Assembly (NCBI GenBank): GCA_013288345.1
Contig: JABDCA010000018.1
Span: 1 to 55,759, forward strand
DNA from: Bacteroidota bacterium
GTDB lineage: Bacteria > Bacteroidota > Bacteroidia > JABEUT01
Direction: 5' to 3'
Length of the DNA stretch: 55,759 nucleotides
A program made the translations under genes and the position numbers. Within the stretch, counting starts at the first letter, position 1, and every line of letters starts with the position of its first letter. The notes under the pieces were generated by a model. That model did not search any database. It was given only the letters and a program-made list of their open reading frames with translations, and had not been told where the DNA came from. Of the stretch, positions 14,727-50,600 are shown one piece after another.

Positions 14727-15218
14727 ATGGAAATGCAAGGCACAAATTTATTTATAGTGGATGACAACAAATTATTGGTTGCAACACTTAGCCAATACCT
14801 GCAGAACAGGTTTGGACCCAGTATGCATATAACGACCTTTAACAGTGGAGAAAGCTGTTTGGAGAAAATTGATGAAAAAACGGATATTGTTATTCTTGAT
14901 TATCAAATGGAAGGCAAAAATGGCCTGGAAGTTTTGAAGTCTATCAAAGCGGTTAATTCAAAAACAGAAGTTATTATGTTGTCGAGTAATGAGGATATGG
15001 CCTTGTCAATAGAGTCATTTAAATCGGGCGCTAAAGATTACGTAATAAAAGGCACGGGCTCATGGAAAAAAGTAGGCAAACTGGTTAACCATGTTGTTAC
15101 AGCACCTATAAGGCTTATGGTGAAAGAATTCAGTATATCAAAGCAATTAGCCATTCTGCTAACTGCATTTATTGTAATTGGTATAGTAGTATTTTGTGCA
15201 TTACAAATGATGAAATAA
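14727..15218 (+). CDS. Receiver-domain protein with C-terminal membrane anchor
   Basis: A 163-aa response-regulator receiver domain (about 1-122) with no DNA-binding output domain. Acidic pocket D12-D13, phospho-acceptor D58 (VILDYQMEG), switch Ser86 and Lys108 (YVIKG) are all present, so it should be phosphorylatable. After a basic linker (KEFSISKQ) it ends in one strongly hydrophobic segment, about 140-160 (LAILLTAFIVIGIVVFCAL). This predicts a receiver tethered to the cytoplasmic face of the inner membrane. The next gene, 46 nt downstream, is an Hpt protein, so the two probably form a phosphorelay module. The kinase is not in the window. Tethered orphan receivers are unusual and the output is unknown. 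Confidence 0.8.
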   Translation: MEMQGTNLFIVDDNKLLVATLSQYLQNRFGPSMHITTFNSGESCLEKIDEKTDIVILDYQMEGKNGLEVLKSIKAVNSKTEVIMLSSNEDMALSIESFKSGAKDYVIKGTGSWKKVGKLVNHVVTAPIRLMVKEFSISKQLAILLTAFIVIGIVVFCALQMMK

Positions 15219-15264
15219 TACAGATAAAAAGTATATATATGATTAGTAACCGGGGGAACAAGAA

Positions 15265-15636
15265 ATGGTAAAAGAAGAAAGCTCAGTTAAAAAGATATGC
15301 GATTTCAGGTATCTTACGGAGATGATGGGAGGAAAAAAACCTTTGATAGCAGGAATTATGAATACTTTTCTAACTCAGATACCAGAAGAGATAAATGGTA
15401 TTAATGATGGCATAGCCAGAACAAATTACCCGGCTATTATGAACTTTTCTCATAACATGAGGTCAACTGTATCTATAATGGGTATTGCAGTGCTTAAGCC
15501 CATTTTGCAGGAAATGGAAAACCTGGCAAAAGAAGCAATGAATATGGATAAAATAAAGGAATTAAATCAAAAGGTTAATTCATTGTGTACGCAGGCAATT
15601 GAAGAAATTGAAAAAGAGAAATTCAATTACGTTTAA
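15265..15636 (+). CDS. Histidine phosphotransfer (Hpt) domain protein
   Basis: A 123-aa mostly helical protein matching an Hpt four-helix bundle. The candidate phosphorylated residue is His63 in FSHNMRSTVSIMG, the equivalent of the HxxKS signature with Arg in place of Lys. The surrounding pattern ('F…IP.EI..I…….Y..I….H.MRS….MG…L……E') is typical. There is no membrane segment or second domain. It is 46 nt downstream of the membrane-anchored receiver on the same strand, so phosphotransfer between them is likely. It ends 4 nt from the convergent BNR-protein gene. Confidence 0.78.
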   Translation: MVKEESSVKKICDFRYLTEMMGGKKPLIAGIMNTFLTQIPEEINGINDGIARTNYPAIMNFSHNMRSTVSIMGIAVLKPILQEMENLAKEAMNMDKIKELNQKVNSLCTQAIEEIEKEKFNYV

Positions 15637-15640
15637 AAGC

Positions 15641-17230
15641 TTACTCTATAACCCACTTACCCCTTGCCAGTGTCTTTTCGCCTTGTACTAACGACCATAC
15701 ATAGGTACCTGTTGCAAGAGAATGGACTTTAATAGTATGCATGGTGCCTTCTCCAATAGGTAGTTCATCAACCTTTTTGCCATCTATACTAAATACCAGC
15801 ATGGTGCTGCCTTGTAATGATTGGGCAGTGTGGATCATTATATTGGTTTGGTTATGAAACGGGTTAGGGTACACATCAACCTTTATTGCCGGATTATCAG
15901 ATATAACAGGAACAGAAGTAAGTAATTTACTTATAGATGTAGCATTAAAAAAGGTGTTCTCTTTACCTGTGCGCATATCACTCCATAGTGCATAAACAGT
16001 CGAATCAGATACGGCACAGCCAAGGAAATCGTCACCATGAATAAGGGTAACAGCCGGAGAAACTGCATCGCTAATTCTAAAATTCGGAGCGTAGGTATTA
16101 CCACCATCTTTTGAGATGGTACCGTATATCTGAAAAGGTACAGTATCACCTGCGCCTGTATTACGCCTGTCGCGCCATACAGTTGCATAAGTTCCGTTTG
16201 GGGCAAAACTTCCCCATGCTAAATCATGGGCAGTATCATAAGCGCCTAACTTATCATCATTCAGGCGGACAGGCCCTGCCCAGGTTTTTCCTGCATTATG
16301 AGAATTGTAGGATACTACATCGGGTTCGCCAAAATGGTTCGATACGGCAGTTATAATAAGGTTAGTGGTATCAGCAGGGTTCGATGCAATGCTTATACCT
16401 TCTTTAACAAGTGAGTCGGCTGCGGGAATAGCATCGGCAGTAGTATAATTAACAGCAATATAAGGAGTAAAAGTATTACCACCGTTCGATGATTTAATAA
16501 CTACCAATCTTGGATAAACAGAATACTTGGTGTAGTATGAAAAATAAGCTGCATATAAAGTACCATTGGCAGAAACTGTTGTAAAAGCAGTTGCATCAGT
16601 TATGGAGCCTGTCGGAATGCTATCGTCCATTCGTTTTATTGGCGACCAGGTTGCACCACTATCGGTTGAATAGGTAAGCCATGGATAATGGGGTTGAGGT
16701 GTAAAGTATGCATTTTGACTGGTAAGGTAAACCCTTCCTGAATATGGGCCATTGCTTCCGTCGGCTGCTATCCATGGGCGGTCTATAGGTAAGTTAGGCT
16801 GCGCTTTATATGAAATAGCTTTTACGGGAGCTTTCCAGGTAATGCCACCATTTACGGAACGTGTAACCATAATATAACCTGAATCATTCGTCTTTAATCC
16901 CGAAAGGTCGATATAGGCTAAGTAAACACAACTATCCTTACCAAAATACATAGTTGGGTCGGCACAGGTAAACTTAGGCGATGCATGCGGTAATAGTTGA
17001 AGACTGCTCCATGTTTTTCCTCCATCGAACGAGGAGCGGGTGGCCATGGCATTCTCCAAATTGCTGGTAGAAAAATACATCCATGCGCTAACAAGGTGCT
17101 TTGGGTTTTTAGGATTGGCTGTCAAATAACATTCCCCATCCCAATAAATAGAATTAGACAGGTTGATGTTCTGCGAAAATGCCTGAATAGAAATATAACA
17201 GGCAAGGAGTAAAAGAATACTTTTTTTCAT
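15641..17230 (-). CDS. Secreted BNR/Asp-box repeat protein with T9SS sorting domain
   Basis: The 529-aa protein has a signal peptide (MKKSILLLLACYISIQAFS), a beta-propeller-like body with about six Asp-box repeats, and a type-A T9SS domain from about residue 445 ('VDVYPNPFHNQTNIMI…', '…LATGTYVWSLV'). The Asp boxes match S.DGG.TW: SFDGGKTW, SVNGGITW, STDSGATW, SSNGGNTF, SHNAGKTW and SKDGGNTY. Asp boxes occur in sialidases and in many non-enzymatic propellers. I did not recognise the sialidase arginine triad with confidence, so the enzymatic label should not be assumed. It likely acts outside the cell or on its surface. Its promoter is at 17280-17287. Confidence 0.8.
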   Translation of the reverse strand: MKKSILLLLACYISIQAFSQNINLSNSIYWDGECYLTANPKNPKHLVSAWMYFSTSNLENAMATRSSFDGGKTWSSLQLLPHASPKFTCADPTMYFGKDSCVYLAYIDLSGLKTNDSGYIMVTRSVNGGITWKAPVKAISYKAQPNLPIDRPWIAADGSNGPYSGRVYLTSQNAYFTPQPHYPWLTYSTDSGATWSPIKRMDDSIPTGSITDATAFTTVSANGTLYAAYFSYYTKYSVYPRLVVIKSSNGGNTFTPYIAVNYTTADAIPAADSLVKEGISIASNPADTTNLIITAVSNHFGEPDVVSYNSHNAGKTWAGPVRLNDDKLGAYDTAHDLAWGSFAPNGTYATVWRDRRNTGAGDTVPFQIYGTISKDGGNTYAPNFRISDAVSPAVTLIHGDDFLGCAVSDSTVYALWSDMRTGKENTFFNATSISKLLTSVPVISDNPAIKVDVYPNPFHNQTNIMIHTAQSLQGSTMLVFSIDGKKVDELPIGEGTMHTIKVHSLATGTYVWSLVQGEKTLARGKWVIE

Positions 17231-17308: not shown

Positions 17309-17429
17309 CCCCAAACCTCTAAAGGGGCTTTAAATTAGATATGTCGTGCTGAGCTTGTCGAAGCATATTCAACTGACACTTCGACAGGCTCAGTGTGACG
17401 AGCGTTAAAGCCCCTTTAGGGGTTTGGGG
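17309..17429. repeat. 121-bp palindromic repeat, copy 1 (nested inverted repeats)
   Basis: Outer arms of 25 bp (17309-17333 and 17405-17429; CCCCAAAC … GTTTGGGG) match with one mismatch. Inner arms (TGAGCTTGTCGAAG and CTTCGACAGGCTCA) form a second inverted repeat. A second copy with the same nested layout lies at 39369-39490. Both sit between co-directional minus-strand genes. No transposase is inside, so it is a non-autonomous or REP/MITE-like element. Confidence 0.85.
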
Positions 17430-17437
17430 TACTAAAT

Positions 17438-17469
17438 AAAAAAGCCCCGCAGTAATGCGGGGCTTTTTT
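17438..17469. terminator. Strong terminator after the ECF-operon
   Basis: Perfect 13-bp arms (AAAAAAGCCCCGC and its complement) surround a 6-nt loop, with a T-run on the minus-strand side. It ends the four-gene operon whose last stop is at 17497. Confidence 0.85.
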
Positions 17470-17470
17470 A

Positions 17471-17502
17471 CTCAAACTTTATCTCAACCTCAAACTTTAT
17501 CT
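17471..17502. repeat. 14-bp direct repeat across the end of the PKD gene
   Basis: CTCAAACTTTATCT occurs at 17471-17484 and again at 17489-17502, an 18-bp period. The second copy overlaps the stop codon of the PKD-repeat gene at 17497-17499. A related CTCAACCTCAACC string occurs at the relA 3' end. Confidence 0.6.
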
Positions 17503-19776
17503 TGTAATCACAGTCTTTGTATTGTATACTCTGTCAGCAGTAATAATCCTTACAAAATAGGTTCCACCTGAAATGTTTTGAAGGTTAACATCTTGCTGTA
17601 TCATCCCGTTGCTCGAATGTGTTTGTGTTTGATAAACAACTTCACCCAGCAGGTTGGTTATTTGCAATTCCGCATTCTGCGCATTTTCTATTCCGGTAAT
17701 GGCAACTCTGAATGCTCCATTGTTAGGATTAGGGTATAGCTTGAAGTCGGCATTCGGGTTGCTAATTGTTGCAACACCTGCAGGCTCTATATCAATAGGC
17801 ATACTAAAGGTTGTAAAGTCATACCTGTCGTTTACGCCTGTGCTTCTATGGTGTTGTATACCCGGATACTGGGTGAACCAGAGTGATAAGGTAACAGTAT
17901 GTATGCCGGTGTTATGGTAATAGTGGCTATAAGTAGTCATACCTATACCGCTATCGGCACCTGTTGTGTCACCTGCATCCCATCTGTAGTAGGTTACCCC
18001 ATTGGTTCCGGTTGATGTGCTTGTGAAAATGTAAAGGTAATTGCCAACGGTATCTCCATAGTTAGTTGAAGTAAAGCTGGCATGTAATGAATCCTGGTTA
18101 GATATATTGATGGTTTCCATTACAGAGTCAATGCAATATGCACTACCTGTGTTCTCGATAATCAGCCATACGTTATAGCTTCCGTTAGATGGGAAAGTTA
18201 AGTTGGTGCTGCTGCCTGTGCCTAAAATTGTAGCAGAACTATCAGACTTCCATGTATACTGTGTACCACCATAAGTGCCTGTACTGGTACTGCTCACATA
18301 AACCATTCCTTTGGTAGTATCATTGCTTACAGTAAAGCTTGCACTAAGTGTACAAGGTGTAGTAATGTTACTGATAGTTATAACAGTATATGTAGAATCT
18401 AAGCAAAGTGAACTATCAGCCGAAGCAGTAAGTGTAACTGTATAAGTACCGTTTGCAGTATAGATATGCTTATCGGTATTGCTGTTTGTAAAATCATTAC
18501 CACCATCACCAAAATTCCAGTACGAATTTAAATTGGTATTGATTGTACTTGAAGTATTGGTAAATGATACGTGACCGTTTACACCAACTGTATAAGTGAA
18601 GTGAGCAACCAAATGACATTCGTTACTGTCTGCAGTATATTGCGATACATATTGGTAGGTAGAATCAACGCAGTAAGCAGAGCCTGTATCTCTTACAGTT
18701 AGCCATGGATAATAGTTGCCTTGGTATACGTATGTATGGTTGAAGGTAGGCGTTGTTCCATGCACTGTAGGGGTTCCATCACCTGCATTCCAATAATACA
18801 AGGTGTTAGCGTTGGTTCCTGTAGATGTGCTGGTAAAGCTTACCAACCCAGCTGCACCAACGGTATAGGTATAATTCGCACTAAGAGTGCAAGGTGTGGT
18901 TATATTAGTTACGTTAATTTGTAAAGTATCGGTAGATATACAAGTAGTACTATCGGCATATACAGTAAGCATAACCGTATAGTTGCCATTAGCAGTATAA
19001 GTATGGCTATATGTTGTAGGAGCATAGTTTGTACTTCCGCTTCCATCACCCGGGTTCCAGGTATAGTATGCATATCCGTTTATACCTGTTGTGGTACTGG
19101 TAAAACTCATGTGCCCGTTAACGCCATAGTTTACTGTAAAGCTTGCGTTAAGGTTACACGGCGGGTTTCCTGTGCCAGTTGTTATATTAACAGTGTCATA
19201 AACCGTACTTGTACAGCCATAACCATTGGTGATGGTTAATGAAGGATAGTAATAACCATTATTTACATAAGTATTAGATGGATTCGCGTTTGTTGAGGAA
19301 TTTCCATCGCCAAACCACCATTGGTAAGTTGCTCCTACACCAACCCCGGTTGATCCAGCGCTAGAGAAGTTTACTAATCCGGCTGCACCCATAGTAAAAC
19401 TTGGTTGTGGGTTAAGGCTACAAGTGCCGCTGTTTGATATCGTTACTGTGGTAGAAGCGCTGTCAAATGGGTTGCCTGTACTGTCCCAAATATACAACAC
19501 AATAGTGTAAGAGCCATTGTATGCATAAGTATGGTTAAATGTTCTAACCGCAGGTCCGTTTACTACGGGGCTGCCATCACCTGCATTCCAGGTATAAATA
19601 GTATTTGGGGAAGTACCTGTAGATGTACTGGTGCAATTTACCAGCCCGCTACTACCGGTGGTGTAGGTAAAGCTGGCTTTAAAAGCCCAGGCAGAGTTGA
19701 TAAAGCAAATGCCTAATGCAAGCAGGAATAGCTTCATCAGTTTTTTGCGCGTTGTGGGTAGGTTTTTTGTTTTCAT
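17497..19776 (-). CDS. Secreted seven-PKD-repeat protein with T9SS sorting domain
   Basis: About 759 aa from the ATG at 19776; an ATG nine codons further upstream (19803) is equally possible. A signal peptide (KLMKLFLLALGICFINSAWA) leads into seven tandem PKD domains of 80-90 aa. Each has 'SFT…G…FTSTSTG…..Y.W..GDG…..…..H.Y…G.Y.V.L….' with the PKD hallmark WNAGDG, WWFGDG, WNPGDG or WNFGDG. The end is a type-A T9SS domain ('FKLYPNPNNGAFRVAI…', '…ISGGTYFVRIITADR'). It is the last gene of the operon started by the ECF sigma factor, 98 nt after the lipoprotein stop. It is probably a surface-exposed structural or adhesive protein made on demand by that sigma factor. Confidence 0.85.
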   Translation of the reverse strand: MKTKNLPTTRKKLMKLFLLALGICFINSAWAFKASFTYTTGSSGLVNCTSTSTGTSPNTIYTWNAGDGSPVVNGPAVRTFNHTYAYNGSYTIVLYIWDSTGNPFDSASTTVTISNSGTCSLNPQPSFTMGAAGLVNFSSAGSTGVGVGATYQWWFGDGNSSTNANPSNTYVNNGYYYPSLTITNGYGCTSTVYDTVNITTGTGNPPCNLNASFTVNYGVNGHMSFTSTTTGINGYAYYTWNPGDGSGSTNYAPTTYSHTYTANGNYTVMLTVYADSTTCISTDTLQINVTNITTPCTLSANYTYTVGAAGLVSFTSTSTGTNANTLYYWNAGDGTPTVHGTTPTFNHTYVYQGNYYPWLTVRDTGSAYCVDSTYQYVSQYTADSNECHLVAHFTYTVGVNGHVSFTNTSSTINTNLNSYWNFGDGGNDFTNSNTDKHIYTANGTYTVTLTASADSSLCLDSTYTVITISNITTPCTLSASFTVSNDTTKGMVYVSSTSTGTYGGTQYTWKSDSSATILGTGSSTNLTFPSNGSYNVWLIIENTGSAYCIDSVMETINISNQDSLHASFTSTNYGDTVGNYLYIFTSTSTGTNGVTYYRWDAGDTTGADSGIGMTTYSHYYHNTGIHTVTLSLWFTQYPGIQHHRSTGVNDRYDFTTFSMPIDIEPAGVATISNPNADFKLYPNPNNGAFRVAITGIENAQNAELQITNLLGEVVYQTQTHSSNGMIQQDVNLQNISGGTYFVRIITADRVYNTKTVITR

Positions 19777-19874
19777 GTTGGTTTGGGTTATGCTTATTTG
19801 CATTATTAGTTTTCAGTTTAGGCCTTTATACACAGATACGGTACCTTTATATAAAGGGTTGGGTTTAATTTAAA

Positions 19875-21038
19875 TTATTTATAGGCCACCGCAATAATTG
19901 CATCTCCATTCTTGATTGCCAGGGTTTTGCCTGTATAGTCAAATAATATGCAATCGAACTTTACATGTAGTTGTTTGGTGCTTTGGTTATTCTCATTGTT
20001 CTGGTAGTTTGTTACCGAAGTTATTTGAAAATAACTGCTATCGGGCTGTGCAGGATTATTAGAAGTGTACTGATCACCGGTAGCATCGGTATAAATTATT
20101 GTGGCATTAGCCAGACCTTGTGGGTTAGGTGCTAAAATAGGTGAAGATATATTATAGCTAAAAACATGCGAGTAGGCTATACTATTAGGAGTGGCAGCAT
20201 AGGCAGTTGAACTGGCTTTGATATTGTTTGTTATGTCATGTACAGTAAGGGTTACCGTGTGTGGATTTGAATCACTAAAGGTATGTGCTGCGTTTGTTGT
20301 GTTTGCTGTATCATTTACTGTAAGACTGGCAGGGTCTCCAAAATCCCAGTGATACGAGTAATTGCCTGATCCACCATAGGTGGTAGGCATAAAAGTTATT
20401 CCACTATCTGTAATTGAGCAATTCAGGCTAACATTGGTATTGCCCATTTGTAATGGATTGCTCAATGTTTTGGATGTATTGTCACTAAATGTTACAAATA
20501 GCGATGAATTATAGCTTCCTGCATGGCTATATGTATGGACTATGGCGCTTAGTGCAGACGAATTTATAGTGGTTACAGTACCATCACCAAAATTCCAGGC
20601 GTAGCTTTTTACCTTTACCGAAGTATCAGCAGTAGGAGTAAAAGTTACGAAAATAGAATCTGAATTACCACCGGGTACCAAGTAACTTAAATACCCTGTT
20701 GCTAACGAATGCCCAATATTAGTTTCACTTGCACCTAAAGGTAAGGTATGATAATTATTAATAATAAACTCGATGCTTGGCGGGCAGTTGCTGGTGCAAT
20801 TATATTCTTTCAGGTTGCCTGTATAATTATATACCCCATTTGCAGAATCTTGAGTATAGGATGAGTACATGTAATAGTTATTTAAGCCTGCTCTGAGGTT
20901 CATAGCAGTACCACCCACAATGCCTGTAAAGCTAAATACAGGGCTTGCATTTTGAGTAGCTATATGTTCCTTTTTGCAGCCAGGTGTAAATAAGCTTACC
21001 AGCAAACAAAGAGTTATTATCTGAGATATTCTTTTCAT
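19875..21038 (-). CDS. PKD-domain lipoprotein
   Basis: The 387-aa protein begins with a lipoprotein signal (MKRISQIITLCLLVSLFTPGC), with Cys21 as the predicted lipidated residue and KKEH after it. Two PKD domains are visible: SYAWNFGDGTVTT near residue 150 and YSYHWDFGDPASLT near 230. The C-terminal ~120 residues look beta-rich and unassigned. It is placed between the anti-sigma/barrel protein (2-nt gap upstream) and the PKD/T9SS protein, so it is almost certainly co-transcribed and could anchor or present the secreted PKD protein at the outer membrane. That partnership is inference. Confidence 0.75.
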   Translation of the reverse strand: MKRISQIITLCLLVSLFTPGCKKEHIATQNASPVFSFTGIVGGTAMNLRAGLNNYYMYSSYTQDSANGVYNYTGNLKEYNCTSNCPPSIEFIINNYHTLPLGASETNIGHSLATGYLSYLVPGGNSDSIFVTFTPTADTSVKVKSYAWNFGDGTVTTINSSALSAIVHTYSHAGSYNSSLFVTFSDNTSKTLSNPLQMGNTNVSLNCSITDSGITFMPTTYGGSGNYSYHWDFGDPASLTVNDTANTTNAAHTFSDSNPHTVTLTVHDITNNIKASSTAYAATPNSIAYSHVFSYNISSPILAPNPQGLANATIIYTDATGDQYTSNNPAQPDSSYFQITSVTNYQNNENNQSTKQLHVKFDCILFDYTGKTLAIKNGDAIIAVAYK

Positions 21039-21040
21039 TA

Positions 21041-22507
21041 CTATTTTATAATATCGTATGAAAGTATTAATCGTAAACCGCTGTTCCTTTCAAAAACATT
21101 GTTGTTGAAAAAGGAATTATTTTCAATATCAAGCAAGCCGTAATAACCTTCGGCACTAATTGTAAAGCGTTGTATTTTTCTGCGATAGGCTAAGGTGATT
21201 TGTGCATCAAGACTATTTATGCCATCAGTATAGCCCATTTTATCTGAAGAAGTGTAACCGGAAGTACCAAAATAATTCTGGTTGTAACTAACTACATTGC
21301 TATTCGAGTTTAGTAAGTACAATACATTAACGCCCAGTGCTACTATATTCTTACTGTCGATGTTGTATTGGAATTTAATGGGCATTGCAACATAATAAAG
21401 TGTTTTGAGTGTCACTGAAGTAACATTCGTAACGGAGCCAAAATCGTATTGTGCAGTAGTGCCCGAATAAAGTGTATTTACATGCGTAAGGCTATTATAC
21501 TGTAGTCCAATAAGAGCTGAAATGTTTGTGTTGAAATAATGAGTTACACTAAGGCCTATGATCGGACTAATTCCACTTCCTTGTGTTGCACCTGCTTTCA
21601 TCCATCCCAAAGAGTAACCTGCACCTGCATCAATACTAAATAAGGTGTGGGTGTATTTAACAACCGGCGCGGGTGGCTGATTGCTACCCGCGCTGTTGTT
21701 TGAGGTGGAAGAATCTGTTTTTTTAGCTGTGTTTGCCGTTGTTGTAACTACCTGATTTTTGTTTGCAGTATCCTGCGCAGCATTTGTATTAGTAGTTGCC
21801 TGGGCAGAAGTATTAAGATTTTGCTCTGCAGTTTTTCCTGCATCAGCTACCTGTGTGGTATTGTTACTTGTATTGTTTTCATTTGCAGTAGTGGTATTTT
21901 GATTGGTTACCGGTTTGTTGTTATCGGTAACTGTAGAGGTGCCCGGAGTTGTAGTATAAGTTGATGATGAAGTTCTATTGTTTGCCAATTGAGTAGCATG
22001 AGATTTTTGTCTCTTACTTTTTTCTGTTTCAGGCCTTACATAACTATATGCAGTTGCAGATGAGTCAGCAGTAGTTTGTTTTTGGTGCTTGTTCTTTTTA
22101 GTATTTCCTGTGCTTTGGGTAGTTACAGTTTCAACAATTAGGTGTGTACCCGAATCTGAAACAGAATGATTTGGAACAGGCGAAGGCTGCAAGTTTTCAG
22201 CTTTAGTTTTAGACGTAGTAGCAGGTACTGTATTTATTTGACTTTGTACAACAGCATTATTGTTTTGCTGCGCCGAGGTATTAGTAGCTTGGTTAGAGGT
22301 GTTAGCGCTATAGATGAACGGATACATGATAGCTGCACCAACTATAATGCCTGCCAAAAACACAAGAGAGATAAAACCATATTTCTTTTTCTTCTCCGAT
22401 TTTTCAATCATGCCTTCGGCCTTGTCCCAGTTCGTTTCATCGAAAGGAAAGTCACGCTCCGATAATTTGGAGCGCAATAGGTCGTCAAATTTTTCCTGTT
22501 CGTTCAT
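21041..22507 (-). CDS. Anti-sigma-like inner-membrane protein with outer-membrane-barrel-like C-terminus
   Basis: The 488-aa protein has three parts. Residues 1-43 are charged and cytoplasmic (DDLLRSKLSERDFPFDETNW…), as in Bacteroidetes anti-sigma regions. A single transmembrane helix covers about 44-67. A Thr/Asn/Gln-rich linker runs about 68-275. A C-terminal part (about 282-488) has alternating hydrophobic strands ('YTHTLFSIDAGAGYSLGWMKAG…', '…FTISAEGYYGLLDI', terminal LRLILSYDIIK) like PorT/OmpA-type 8-strand barrels. One chain could thus touch both membranes. Its start shares one base with the ECF sigma stop, which argues for stoichiometric sigma/anti-sigma expression. The anti-sigma role is inferred from position and topology. 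Confidence 0.65.
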   Translation of the reverse strand: MNEQEKFDDLLRSKLSERDFPFDETNWDKAEGMIEKSEKKKKYGFISLVFLAGIIVGAAIMYPFIYSANTSNQATNTSAQQNNNAVVQSQINTVPATTSKTKAENLQPSPVPNHSVSDSGTHLIVETVTTQSTGNTKKNKHQKQTTADSSATAYSYVRPETEKSKRQKSHATQLANNRTSSSTYTTTPGTSTVTDNNKPVTNQNTTTANENNTSNNTTQVADAGKTAEQNLNTSAQATTNTNAAQDTANKNQVVTTTANTAKKTDSSTSNNSAGSNQPPAPVVKYTHTLFSIDAGAGYSLGWMKAGATQGSGISPIIGLSVTHYFNTNISALIGLQYNSLTHVNTLYSGTTAQYDFGSVTNVTSVTLKTLYYVAMPIKFQYNIDSKNIVALGVNVLYLLNSNSNVVSYNQNYFGTSGYTSSDKMGYTDGINSLDAQITLAYRRKIQRFTISAEGYYGLLDIENNSFFNNNVFERNSGLRLILSYDIIK

Positions 22508-23070
22508 TACAATAAAAATGATTTAACTGTAAACGCCATTTTATGGAGCATTACCTTTAATTGTTCCCGTGAAAAATGCAAATGCCATTTTGATGTTCCT
22601 TCGCTTATACCCAGCATATTGGCAATTTCCTTGTGTTCAAAACCATCTACCACATATAAGTTAAATACTCTTTGGCTCATGGGTGGCAGTTGTACTATCA
22701 GCTTATGTATTTCCTCTACATTCATTTTCGAAATGGCTTCATTCAAAGCTCCCGCTATGGGCAGTTCCTCAAAGTCCTCTACGTATTTTATATTCTCTTT
22801 ATGTTTCTTCTCCTTGCGGTATTCATCAATAAGTACATTTATAATAACCCGGCGTATCCACGATTTAAAAGGTATATGCGATTGGTATTTCTCCAGGTTG
22901 TTCAGCACTTTTAAAAAACCGGTGTTCAAAGCCTCTTGTGCCTCCTCGTATGATTGTGTATATCGTATGCAAATACTCATCAGGTATCTATAGGTCTCTT
23001 TATAAAGCTCGTATTGCGCTTTACGCTCTTTTCGTATGCAGGCTGTAATTAAGTCGACTTCTACATTCAT
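22507..23070 (-). CDS. ECF RNA polymerase sigma factor
   Basis: A 187-aa group-4 sigma factor. Sigma-2 covers about 10-80 ('YRYLMSICIRYTQSYEEAQEAL…GFLKVLNNLEKYQ'). Sigma-4 covers about 115-175, with the helix-turn-helix HKEIANMLGISEGTSKWHLHFSREQLK. It is first gene of the minus-strand operon 23070-17497 and overlaps the next gene by one base. No exact TAnnTTTG box was found upstream, which would fit an alternative or autoregulated promoter in the 248-nt spacer shared with the divergent threonine dehydrogenase gene. Target genes probably include its own operon. Confidence 0.9.
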   Translation of the reverse strand: MNVEVDLITACIRKERKAQYELYKETYRYLMSICIRYTQSYEEAQEALNTGFLKVLNNLEKYQSHIPFKSWIRRVIINVLIDEYRKEKKHKENIKYVEDFEELPIAGALNEAISKMNVEEIHKLIVQLPPMSQRVFNLYVVDGFEHKEIANMLGISEGTSKWHLHFSREQLKVMLHKMAFTVKSFLL

Positions 23071-23318
23071 TATTGCAATACGGGCTTACATCAATTTACT
23101 AACTAGTACGCGGGCCTTGGTCAATGGGTTGGGTGATTTTTGAATATTACCGAAATATCTATACAAGTAATTGAAAATCAATATGATTAATATTGACTTA
23201 AGCGCTTGAATAAGTATCTGAAACAAATCTACTAAAAATGCACCGAATTAGGCAGGCTTACCCTAAAACCCCGACCGAAATTTTAGTACTTTCGCCCATC
23301 TTCACATAAACACAGGGT

Positions 23319-47639: not shown

Positions 47640-50600
47640 TTAATGTACAATCATTATTTTATCCGCTTTTATCAGGTCGTTATTTTTATCGGTAATACGA
47701 TAATAATAAATACCCACTGCAAAATCACCTATAGGCAGTACTGTAATACTACTATTCAAATTTTCACACTTAACTACCTGTCCCATGCTATTGTATAAAC
47801 ATATAGTGGCAACTTCATCAGTCTGTAATAATATTTCTACATTTAGAAGAGAATTAGCTGGGTTCGGATAAACCTTAGCATTAGATAATGCACTCTTGGT
47901 TGCAGGTTTAATAGCATTATCGCTTCTATTGCTGCAAGTATTATGATACAGGGTATTGTCCATTATATCCATAATCGCTCTGGCTGTAAATACTTCCTTG
48001 CCATATTTCTCAGGGCATTCTTGTGCAACTGTTCGTAAGGTTGCAGCCTCTATACTATCAGGCACTAATTGCCCGTTCAGTAACATGCTTATTATAATAT
48101 TGCCAACAGCTTTGTAAGTCCCTTCCGGAGCATTAATAGGCACTATGGATGTGTTAATTGCCAGTGCGGAATTTAACTCCGCACTACTTGGCCCATTTGT
48201 GTCCGCCAATAAGTTATCAATACTATCAATTTTGCCGATGTTAGAGTTTTGCAAACTATCGTAAAACGAATTGATAAGCGAATCACTTAACAATGAACTA
48301 CCAGTATCTTTAATGAACTTATATAATGCATGTTTTTCTACCCAATGTGCAACTTCAGGATATAAATTAAAAGTATCTGTATTGTTAACTATTGCATGCG
48401 CAAGGGTTAATTGAGCAACCGGAGGGGGGCAATTTTTGAACTTATTACTTTTGCAGTAATAACAACTATGTGCACCTGAATTTGCATTGTTCATTGGAGT
48501 AATGTTATACGGTGCTTTGTTAAAACTAAGCTTATTTAGTGGTGGATTATAGAAGGGCTTATTTTGTACGTAAAACGGGGATTGCGAGCCAAAAGAATTA
48601 TTTGCATAAGTAGCAAAGCTGTATGTCCCATCCCATGTATTATCAAGTGGAGCTGTTGCATCACCCTGTTGGCCTATAATTGCATTTGCATTTAAAATTA
48701 ACCCCGTATTATTATTAATCATCAGGTTTTGGGTGACAAAAGTATTAAGGCTCTGTGGGCCTTCAAACGATAAACCATAATAGGTACTATTGGCAATATT
48801 GCAGCCCAAAAAGTTATTGGCGAGGCAGGTATTCAAATCAATACCTATATCCGCATTTCCCAAGCCTGTAATATCATTATCAATAACTGTACAAGAAAAA
48901 GCATCAGCCATTTCTATACCAATATTGGTAGTGCCCGGAGAGTTAAGGTTAATAATATTCGTATCAATTACTGCGCCCTGTAGGTTCACTGTATAAATGC
49001 CATTATTGTAAGTACTGATAGTATTACTTATAGCAGTATATCTGGTAGTAGTACTCAGTGCATTCTCAAATATACCAATGCCATAGTTAGCCCCAGTTGC
49101 AGGTATTGTACCAGTTATAGCAAGTGTATTTGTATTGGCGATAATCTTTGAAGTAGCATTGTTAAATCCGACAATCCCCAACATGCAATTATTCAGGTTA
49201 TTACTCAAAACTGAAATGTTTGACGTAGCCTGATTGCCAAATAAGCCAATACCGTTAGGCGAATTAGCTGTAAGGAACGCATTACTATTACTGATTGTGT
49301 TGTTTGTAATGCTGAACTTGCTTGCAGTATTATTCTGCCCAAAAGTATTACCAACCAAGACAGCATATTGGCAATCATTAAACGAATTGTAAACTGCACT
49401 GGCTGTAAGTTTGGTGTTATTGTTAATGTTCACACCCCGATTACAATTAATGAAAGTATTGTTATTTGTAGTCGCACTTTGCCCTACAGTCACAGTATTT
49501 TTAACTGTATTGTTTATAACAGCTATGCCTGATAATTGAGCAGTTGGGTTTTGCGTAGTATTGGTGGTAATATTCTGAAAGATATTATTCGCAATAGCCG
49601 CACTACTATTTGAAATGAGAATACCACAATCTAAATTATCAAAAGTATTTGTAGATGTAAGATTATTGGCAAAGCCAATAGTAAGGCTTTTCACGCTCGC
49701 TATGTTAATACCTATTAAGCCCCTATGTCCTAAATAAGGCGAAGGACTGACAAGTGTTTGGGGAGTAGTGCCCAATATAAAGCCGGGACTGGAACCAAAA
49801 GTGTAGGTATCATCATAGCACCTGAAATATGTTTGCGCTATATTACCAGAGTGAGTTCCATTATATGGCATTATGTTTAAACCTACATAATCCTTATTAA
49901 AGTCTGATGCAGTAATAGTATATAATGCACCGTTCTCAGATGTAATAGCATCAATAGCATCCTCAATCAGTGAATTATCAACGTTTATAGTTCCGCTTGG
50001 CTGCACATCAATGCCTTGCCACATTTCATCACATGAATGGATATGGCTATTATTTATTATCAAGTTGGCTCCATTTTGAACAAGAATATTTGAAAACGAA
50101 CCCATTAAAACATCACATTCATTAAGTGTTAATGTTATGCCAGAATTTACTATGAAATACCCATTGATATTCATGTTCAGGTCTCCTTGTATAGTGTAAT
50201 TATTTCCAGATTTTACTATTGTTCCACTACCCAACGGGGTAGAGCTTGTAAGCGTATTAGCATTAAAATCAGTAAAGCCATCAGCTTCAAATTGGTCGCA
50301 GCATCCTCCAACGAGAAAGGTTTGTGTGCAGCAATTACTACCACAGCATACGTCAAGTGTAACAGTAAAAGGCTTTGTTAATATGCTTACAAGATACGGT
50401 ACATAAACTGTGGCATTTGAACCTGAAAGAGCTGCCTGAACATAAGCCCCATTGGCTATTGCATTGGCTGATAAGCTCCATGTATAAGTTGGATTGGTAC
50501 AAGCAAAACCTGAAATGGTTGATGTTAGATTCAGTGCGGCATAATCTTTCCCGCCAACATTTACTAAGTTTCCGGCACAAGTAGCGGAAGGCCCAGCAAT

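Follow-up and report, generated by a model that had tools for sequence, protein, structure and literature searches.

We analysed a 55,759-nucleotide stretch of DNA from a Bacteroidota bacterium (assembly GCA_013288345.1, contig JABDCA010000018.1; hereafter the window), in which four adjacent genes encode an extracytoplasmic function (ECF) sigma factor, a 488-residue protein predicted to be of the dual membrane-spanning anti-sigma (Dma) type, a PKD lipoprotein, and a PKD-repeat protein exported by the type IX secretion system (T9SS) (Table 1). In the list of open reading frames (ORFs), the four genes lie where the initial annotation had placed them, and base 22507 is common to the sigma stop and the start of the 488-residue gene, as it had stated; the lipoprotein gene begins two bases past the 488-residue gene. 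The same annotation had joined all four genes into one operon. The gene order was right, but the T9SS gene has its own predicted copy of the sigma promoter, and the layout is therefore better read as a three-gene operon and a separately promoted fourth gene. The hairpin after the T9SS gene was supported by its folding energy (17428-17480, -29.4 kcal/mol, z -9.0 vs shuffles). The terminator consensus scan did not list this hairpin at 17438-17463, and generic sigma-70 promoter and terminator scans of the window performed no better than shuffles.

Table 1 Features of the sigma-Dma-lipoprotein operon and the neighbouring T9SS gene in the window
Feature	Position	Strand	Evidence
Predicted ECF promoter of the sigma operon, CCCAACC-N16-CGTA	23107..23133	(-)	Kept upstream of relatives' sigma genes; motif count in the window
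ECF sigma factor, 187 aa	22507..23070	(-)	Pfam Sigma70_r2 and r4_2; SigW the best solved chain
Predicted Dma-type dual-membrane anti-sigma protein, 488 aa	21041..22507	(-)	AlphaFold2, Foldseek, profile links to NigD-linked Dma
Dma N-terminal cytoplasmic domain, residues 1-42, presumed to bind sigma	22382..22507	(-)	Conserved in relatives; hhalign
Dma inner-membrane helix, about residues 43-66, KKKK before; presumed N-in	22310..22381	(-)	Hydropathy; helix in model
Dma disordered Thr/Asn-rich tether, residues 70-277	21677..22300	(-)	pLDDT; composition and length across relatives
Dma beta-barrel, residues 287-487, read as eight strands	21047..21649	(-)	DSSP on model; Foldseek
PKD lipoprotein, 387 aa, Cys21, two PKD domains between N-half and C-half	19875..21038	(-)	Alignment; C-half profile; PKD_4
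Second predicted ECF promoter copy, before the T9SS gene, CCCAACC-N16-CGTA	19837..19863	(-)	Motif scans
T9SS-exported protein, 768 aa, seven PKD repeats	17497..19803	(-)	Pfam; repeat omission test
Type A T9SS sorting domain of the 768-aa protein	17506..17739	(-)	Por_Secre_tail, E 1.5e-11
Intrinsic-terminator-like hairpin and T run, closing the unit	17438..17463 (about)	(-)	Folding energy vs shuffles

The first gene product matched Pfam sigma-70 regions 2 and 4, and its closest solved chain was SigW (E 5.7e-10). The 488-residue protein reached no family cut-off in Pfam or NCBIfam. Its sole hydrophobic segment comprises residues 43-61 (mean hydropathy 2.29) and is preceded by lysines (KKKK); with 19-residue windows and a threshold of 1.6, only the starts at residues 42-50 exceeded the threshold. 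The linker that follows is 208 residues long and rich in Thr (22%) and Asn (15%). An AlphaFold2 model, computed from this protein and nine relatives, contained helices at residues 3-16 and 25-69, a stretch at residues 66-277 with a predicted local distance difference test (pLDDT) score below 50, and a barrel at residues 287-487, whose 10-residue pLDDT blocks were mostly 80-94 with dips to 49-75. DSSP assigned nine strand segments to the modelled barrel, of which 414-424 and 433-445 may be read as one bulged strand, giving eight strands. In the Foldseek search with the barrel, OmpA and Ail came first, and NspA and OmpX ranked 8th and 25th, respectively; the barrels of these four proteins have eight strands each. 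The single transmembrane helix and the Thr/Asn linker of about 200 residues in the initial annotation were thus recovered, and the structure prediction that it had proposed for 21041-22507 returned the expected picture of one transmembrane helix and a putative eight-strand barrel. The chain is accordingly predicted, from model and composition, to begin with a short N-terminal domain and a single inner-membrane helix and to end in an OmpA-like barrel, with a disordered tether between the helix and the barrel. Residues 1-42, in which the motif SERDFPFDE-NW-AE is conserved among relatives, would bind the sigma factor, and the protein would be placed in both cell membranes. Four positions (W27, G295, G318, and P376) were invariant in 22 aligned Dma sequences.

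Pfam found PKD_4 domains and no other family in the 387-residue lipoprotein. Two PKD domains lie between an N-half (about residues 30-130) and a C-half (about residues 287-387), and 18 lipoproteins align over their full length, with conserved stretches on both sides of the PKD region. Shorter relatives have the C-half without PKD, and three of these (L172, L175, and L180; 207-220 aa) lie behind a Dma gene. The PKD domains may have been inserted into a single domain of about 200 residues, a suggestion that we keep tentative because the N-half matches of these three short forms were weak (E 0.0028, 4.6e-6, and 0.0035, respectively). Ten lipoprotein relatives, all but one of them short forms, were scanned with Pfam and gave no match above a family cut-off. 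The structure model of the lipoprotein (mean pLDDT 62.8) was confident chiefly in the PKD region, and a Foldseek search with this model gave generic Ig-like folds. Cys21 is followed by KKEH, a partial fit to C-X-K-(D/E)2-X, which the available part of the source gives as the optimum of the Capnocytophaga lipoprotein export signal (PMC5080379). The lipoprotein is presumably co-regulated with Dma and would act as a partner of its barrel in the outer membrane. In another locus (L031 4281-6689, minus strand), the PKD lipoprotein gene is tandemly duplicated behind one Dma gene.

The 768-residue protein combines Pfam PKD domains with a type A sorting domain at its end. Pfam scored six PKD stretches, and each of seven repeats was still found upon stepwise omission; the ECF sigma factor, the PKD lipoprotein, and the seven-PKD T9SS protein were all correctly named in the initial annotation. 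The source genome contains 120 matches to T9SS sorting domains at E <=1e-3, plus SprA.

The conservation of this gene order was then assessed. With the 488-residue protein as query, matches were found in 22 of 60 genomes, the source genome included, and in 9 of the 10 other genomes of the same genus. Nine named records that correspond to stretches from this genus are metagenome-assembled genomes of uncultured Bacteroidetes or Bacteroidia. The source genome has two further Dma copies (L005 on contig C3 and L006 on contig C16), both accompanied by separate sigma and lipoprotein genes. The full lipoprotein profile matched ordinary PKD domains (236/395 genomes) and was dropped as a phylum-wide probe, and for this reason the C-half alone was used, which gave matches in 49/198 genomes; three of its matches were left out of the context set (G548 at a contig end, and G508:C99 and G456:C16:389869 as weak). 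The resulting 62 loci comprise 22 chosen by Dma, 26 by better C-half scores (L144-L169), and 14 by weaker ones (L170-L183). Because 22 of the 62 were chosen by Dma itself, the fair linkage figure comes from the 26 loci with better scores, in 25 of which Dma and sigma genes lie directly upstream of the lipoprotein gene; a Dma was present in 3/14 of the weaker loci. In the Dma-chosen loci the lipoprotein gene came next in 17/22 (one cut by a contig end). Altogether 58 C-half ORFs were found, and 41 of the 44 with at least 290 aa immediately followed Dma and sigma; the exceptions were the tandem second copy in L031, L166, and L181, which is probably a start mis-call of the short form. Short C-half ORFs stood behind a Dma in 3 of 14 cases. 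The genome searches proposed in the initial annotation thus showed that the order recurs, with sigma-Dma-lipoprotein triplets in 16 families of the class besides the window's own, and the arrangement is therefore beyond chance.

Both ends of the Dma chain recur together in the 62 loci. Head matches were found in 50 ORFs and barrel matches in 50, and 48 of 52 such ORFs carry both, a count biased by selection, as the loci were fetched via Dma or lipoprotein matches. The tether measured 137-359 residues in the 48 ORFs (median 207), or 117-359 in 47 under another cut, indicating that a minimum length is kept and the sequence is not. Across the phylum, the Dma profile matched 91/395 genomes, and this figure was not used as a family count because many matches were head only or barrel only. 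One candidate Dma locus, L041, has the head only and looks false. Another locus (L157 2549-8187) has two facing sigma-Dma pairs, each with a same-strand gene for a protein with a T9SS C-terminal domain (T9SS-CTD) upstream.

A common promoter motif was found at these loci. Upstream of the Dma-linked sigma genes, 14 of 15 regions contained CCCAAC-N17-CGT, and L030 was off by one base. The form CCCAACM-N16-CGTW had 2 matches in the window vs 0.05 expected, located upstream of the sigma gene and in the gap that separates the lipoprotein gene from the T9SS gene; a third match to a looser form, at 50230, is probably due to chance. The exact motif was then counted within 300 bp upstream of genes in the 62 loci, with the window excluded and other ORFs of at least 150 aa as background. 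It was present at 27/49 Dma-linked sigma genes and 19/46 T9SS-CTD genes (those of L026, L027, and L031 among them) vs 3/318 other ORFs, whereas the reversed motif was present at no sigma gene, no T9SS-CTD gene, and one other ORF. This count misses L028, owing to a sigma gene split into two ORFs. Furthermore, the base after CGT was the same in both promoters at 14/15 loci, the window included (A, G, or T; L005 differs), and at 7/8 in a hand-thinned set; label shuffles reached the agreement at 14 loci in 7/200,000 cases. Since the two kinds of gene share a promoter in which the following base also agrees, transcription of both the sigma operon and T9SS cargo genes most likely depends on this sigma factor.

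The neighbourhoods pointed in the same direction as the motif. A same-strand T9SS-CTD gene lies within 700 bp of 31 of the 41 complete triplets, on the downstream side in 22 and on the upstream side in 9, and such a gene is downstream of 7/394 other ORFs in the control; in L031, a T9SS gene with its own promoter copy stands upstream of the sigma gene. The control of PKD proteins by the sigma factor, as initially proposed, is thereby supported at the level of prediction.

Eleven motif sites were found in the source genome, compared with four for the reversed pattern. Three precede sigma genes (C18, C3, and C16), all of them Dma-linked, and four precede T9SS-CTD genes, namely that of the window, two on C16 behind the paralogue, and that of a 980-aa protein on C4. 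Others lie before a small gene on C7, whose counterpart in G009 has the motif too, about 315 bp before the gene of a 1386-aa protein on C9, and before a 211-aa gene on C14; one site inside the C16 lipoprotein gene is likely due to chance. The C16 set reads CCCAACA...CGTT and the C18 set CCCAACC...CGTA, which would fit an insulation of the paralogous modules by promoter variants. Across the genus, the ten further genomes together had 102 motif sites vs 61 in the control, with the motif above control in seven genomes and not in three. In two genomes of the genus, the motif stands before the same 150-aa gene (L196 1206-1232 and L234 3978-4004), which we take to be DinB-like and which may belong to the regulon although it is not a T9SS gene.

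Beyond the terminator-like hairpin lies a gene for a BNR-repeat T9SS protein (15641-17230, minus strand); in L030, its homologue with 66% identity stands directly behind the lipoprotein gene, replacing the PKD protein. Farther on, at 14727-15636, the plus strand carries an ORF with a C-terminal hydrophobic stretch, presumably response-regulator-like, and then a small ORF, which we assume from its look to be a phosphotransfer protein.

According to the available part of the source, the Dma proteins of Bacteroides thetaiotaomicron, which occur with Das sigma factors, are a family of anti-sigma proteins that span both membranes, with an N-terminal sigma-binding domain, a transmembrane helix, a disordered tether, and a C-terminal barrel in this order and, in the model given there, domains that span from the outer membrane to the cytosol (PMC13088901). 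The window module is of this type, and the relay through one chain across two membranes, which the initial annotation had offered as new, is not a new idea because the family was already published. At two loci in two other genomes (L231 2922-5695 and L232 2990-5700), a sigma-Dma pair is divergent from a NigD lipoprotein gene; both are probably Dma1-type, since the available text ties Dma1 to NigD1 (PMC13088901). The barrel profile matched the Dma proteins of these two loci (409-425 aa; E 4.8e-5 and 8.6e-5), and hhalign aligned the head of the window family with that of a Dma beside NigD (probability 88%, E 3.2e-6). An alignment of 165 columns between the sigma factor of the window and the one encoded next to a NigD-linked Dma gene gave 29% identity. 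Sigma and Dma distances correlated (0.79 for the head and 0.83 for the barrel), a figure by which pairing and common descent are inseparable. NigD was also considered as the third gene and rejected, as no match to NigD_N, expected of a Dma1-type locus with NigD, was found in the source genome (87% complete), and NigD occurs in 2/296 genomes of the phylum.

We consider it probable that this Dma-type module controls its own operon and T9SS surface proteins via CCCAAC-N17-CGT promoters. Computation supports the gene set, the domain architecture, the conserved linkage, and the shared promoter with its paired variation; from these we infer the sigma binding, membrane placement, release mechanism, and signal of the following model. 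Through its short N-terminal domain, Dma would keep the ECF sigma factor bound at the inner membrane, and the disordered tether would connect this part to the barrel in the outer membrane. When the state of the outer membrane or cell surface changes, Dma would release the sigma factor, which, once free, would read the CCCAAC-N17-CGT promoters, amplify the sigma-Dma-lipoprotein operon, and switch on T9SS-exported surface proteins, the neighbouring PKD protein foremost. It is also conceivable, though on the unlikely side, that the module serves as a surface-display checkpoint, in which the Dma barrel, with the co-expressed lipoprotein as plug or antenna, senses whether the T9SS PKD cargo of the same regulon has arrived at or coated the surface and adjusts the sigma factor; if true, this would be a feedback loop joining secretion to transcription through one protein chain. 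This branch of Dma has a fixed lipoprotein partner, a predicted promoter, and predicted T9SS surface targets, which makes its function testable, and the three paralogous modules with two promoter variants in one genome offer a natural test of sigma insulation.

Several observations weigh against the probable Dma-type reading as a whole. The AlphaFold2 model was built on 10 sequences and had a predicted template modelling score of 0.41, and the N-terminal domain was modelled at moderate confidence (block pLDDT 53-72). The hhalign alignment was confined to the head (67 columns, 18% identity) and left the barrel unaligned; since, in addition, the NigD-linked Dma proteins scored E 0.038 and 0.010 with the head profile by itself, the sequence link to NigD-type Dma is modest. 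The label shuffles of the base after CGT ignore relatedness, and at least one of the 19 T9SS motif matches, that in L041, is probably due to chance. In 49 genomes outside the genus, the motif count was below the control (173 vs 270), suggesting a genome-wide regulon only within the genus, whereas the motifs at the operon itself extend further; the regulon was therefore read mainly from the operon loci.

The 488-residue protein might be cut in maturation into an ordinary inner-membrane anti-sigma factor and a separate outer-membrane barrel, as a tether of about 210 residues, modelled as disordered and lying in the periplasm, should be prone to proteases. We regard this as quite unlikely, since the tethers are long in all 48 ORFs measured, the selection-biased set of head-or-barrel ORFs carries nearly always both parts, and the Dma model in the available part of the published report has domains that reach from the outer membrane to the cytosol (PMC13088901). 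It is more doubtful still that the sigma factor controls its own operon alone, with the T9SS gene an unrelated neighbour whose motif reflects chance or another promoter. The motif is short, its exact form is missing at 22/49 sigma and 27/46 T9SS-CTD genes, and its lack of genome-wide enrichment outside the genus would fit; against this stand its rarity before other ORFs, the paired base, and the T9SS gene in most neighbourhoods.

In FecI-FecR-FecA signalling, the outer-membrane state is relayed to an ECF sigma factor, and the receptor and the anti-sigma factor are separate proteins. A classical system of this kind with its TonB receptor missing would also place an ECF sigma gene beside that of a membrane protein with a periplasmic part, but it is a very remote explanation here. 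No FecR match was found for the 488-residue protein in Pfam or NCBIfam, and FecR-type signalling was rejected on this ground; the operon has no receptor gene, in agreement with the initial annotation, which had dispensed with a separate FecR and TonB receptor. The barrel predicted in the chain that carries the head also speaks against a FecR-type system. The proposed Dma-type control would resemble FecI-FecR-FecA in relaying an outer-membrane state to an ECF sigma factor and differ from it in joining barrel and head in one chain.

By description, the module is like Dma1 and Dma2 of B. thetaiotaomicron in the predicted order of its parts and in the adjacent ECF sigma gene; in the available text, Dma genes adjoin an ECF21 sigma gene, and Dma2 belongs to a three-gene operon, which likewise has a further gene (PMC13088901). 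The family is reported there from Bacteroidota only and studied in B. thetaiotaomicron, with vesicle formation, NigD1, and polysaccharide utilisation loci as outputs and a sensed signal that is not known (PMC13088901). Unlike in that species as described, the third gene here encodes a member of a PKD lipoprotein family, and the predicted output includes T9SS cargo. These surroundings, the lipoprotein family together with a conserved ECF-like promoter before the sigma and T9SS genes, look new; among the literature matches listed, no title or abstract opening ties Dma to PKD or T9SS cargo. A second parallel is Porphyromonas gingivalis SigP, which, according to the available part of its report, is activated via the two-component system PorXY, drives T9SS component genes, and upregulates its own gene, with the surface CTD protein PorA acting upstream (PMC7712824). 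The sigma factor of the window would likewise be tied to the T9SS and raise its own expression, and PorA offers a partial parallel to the checkpoint reading; unlike SigP, for which the same text describes no barrel anti-sigma factor (PMC7712824), the sigma factor of the window is predicted to be held by one.

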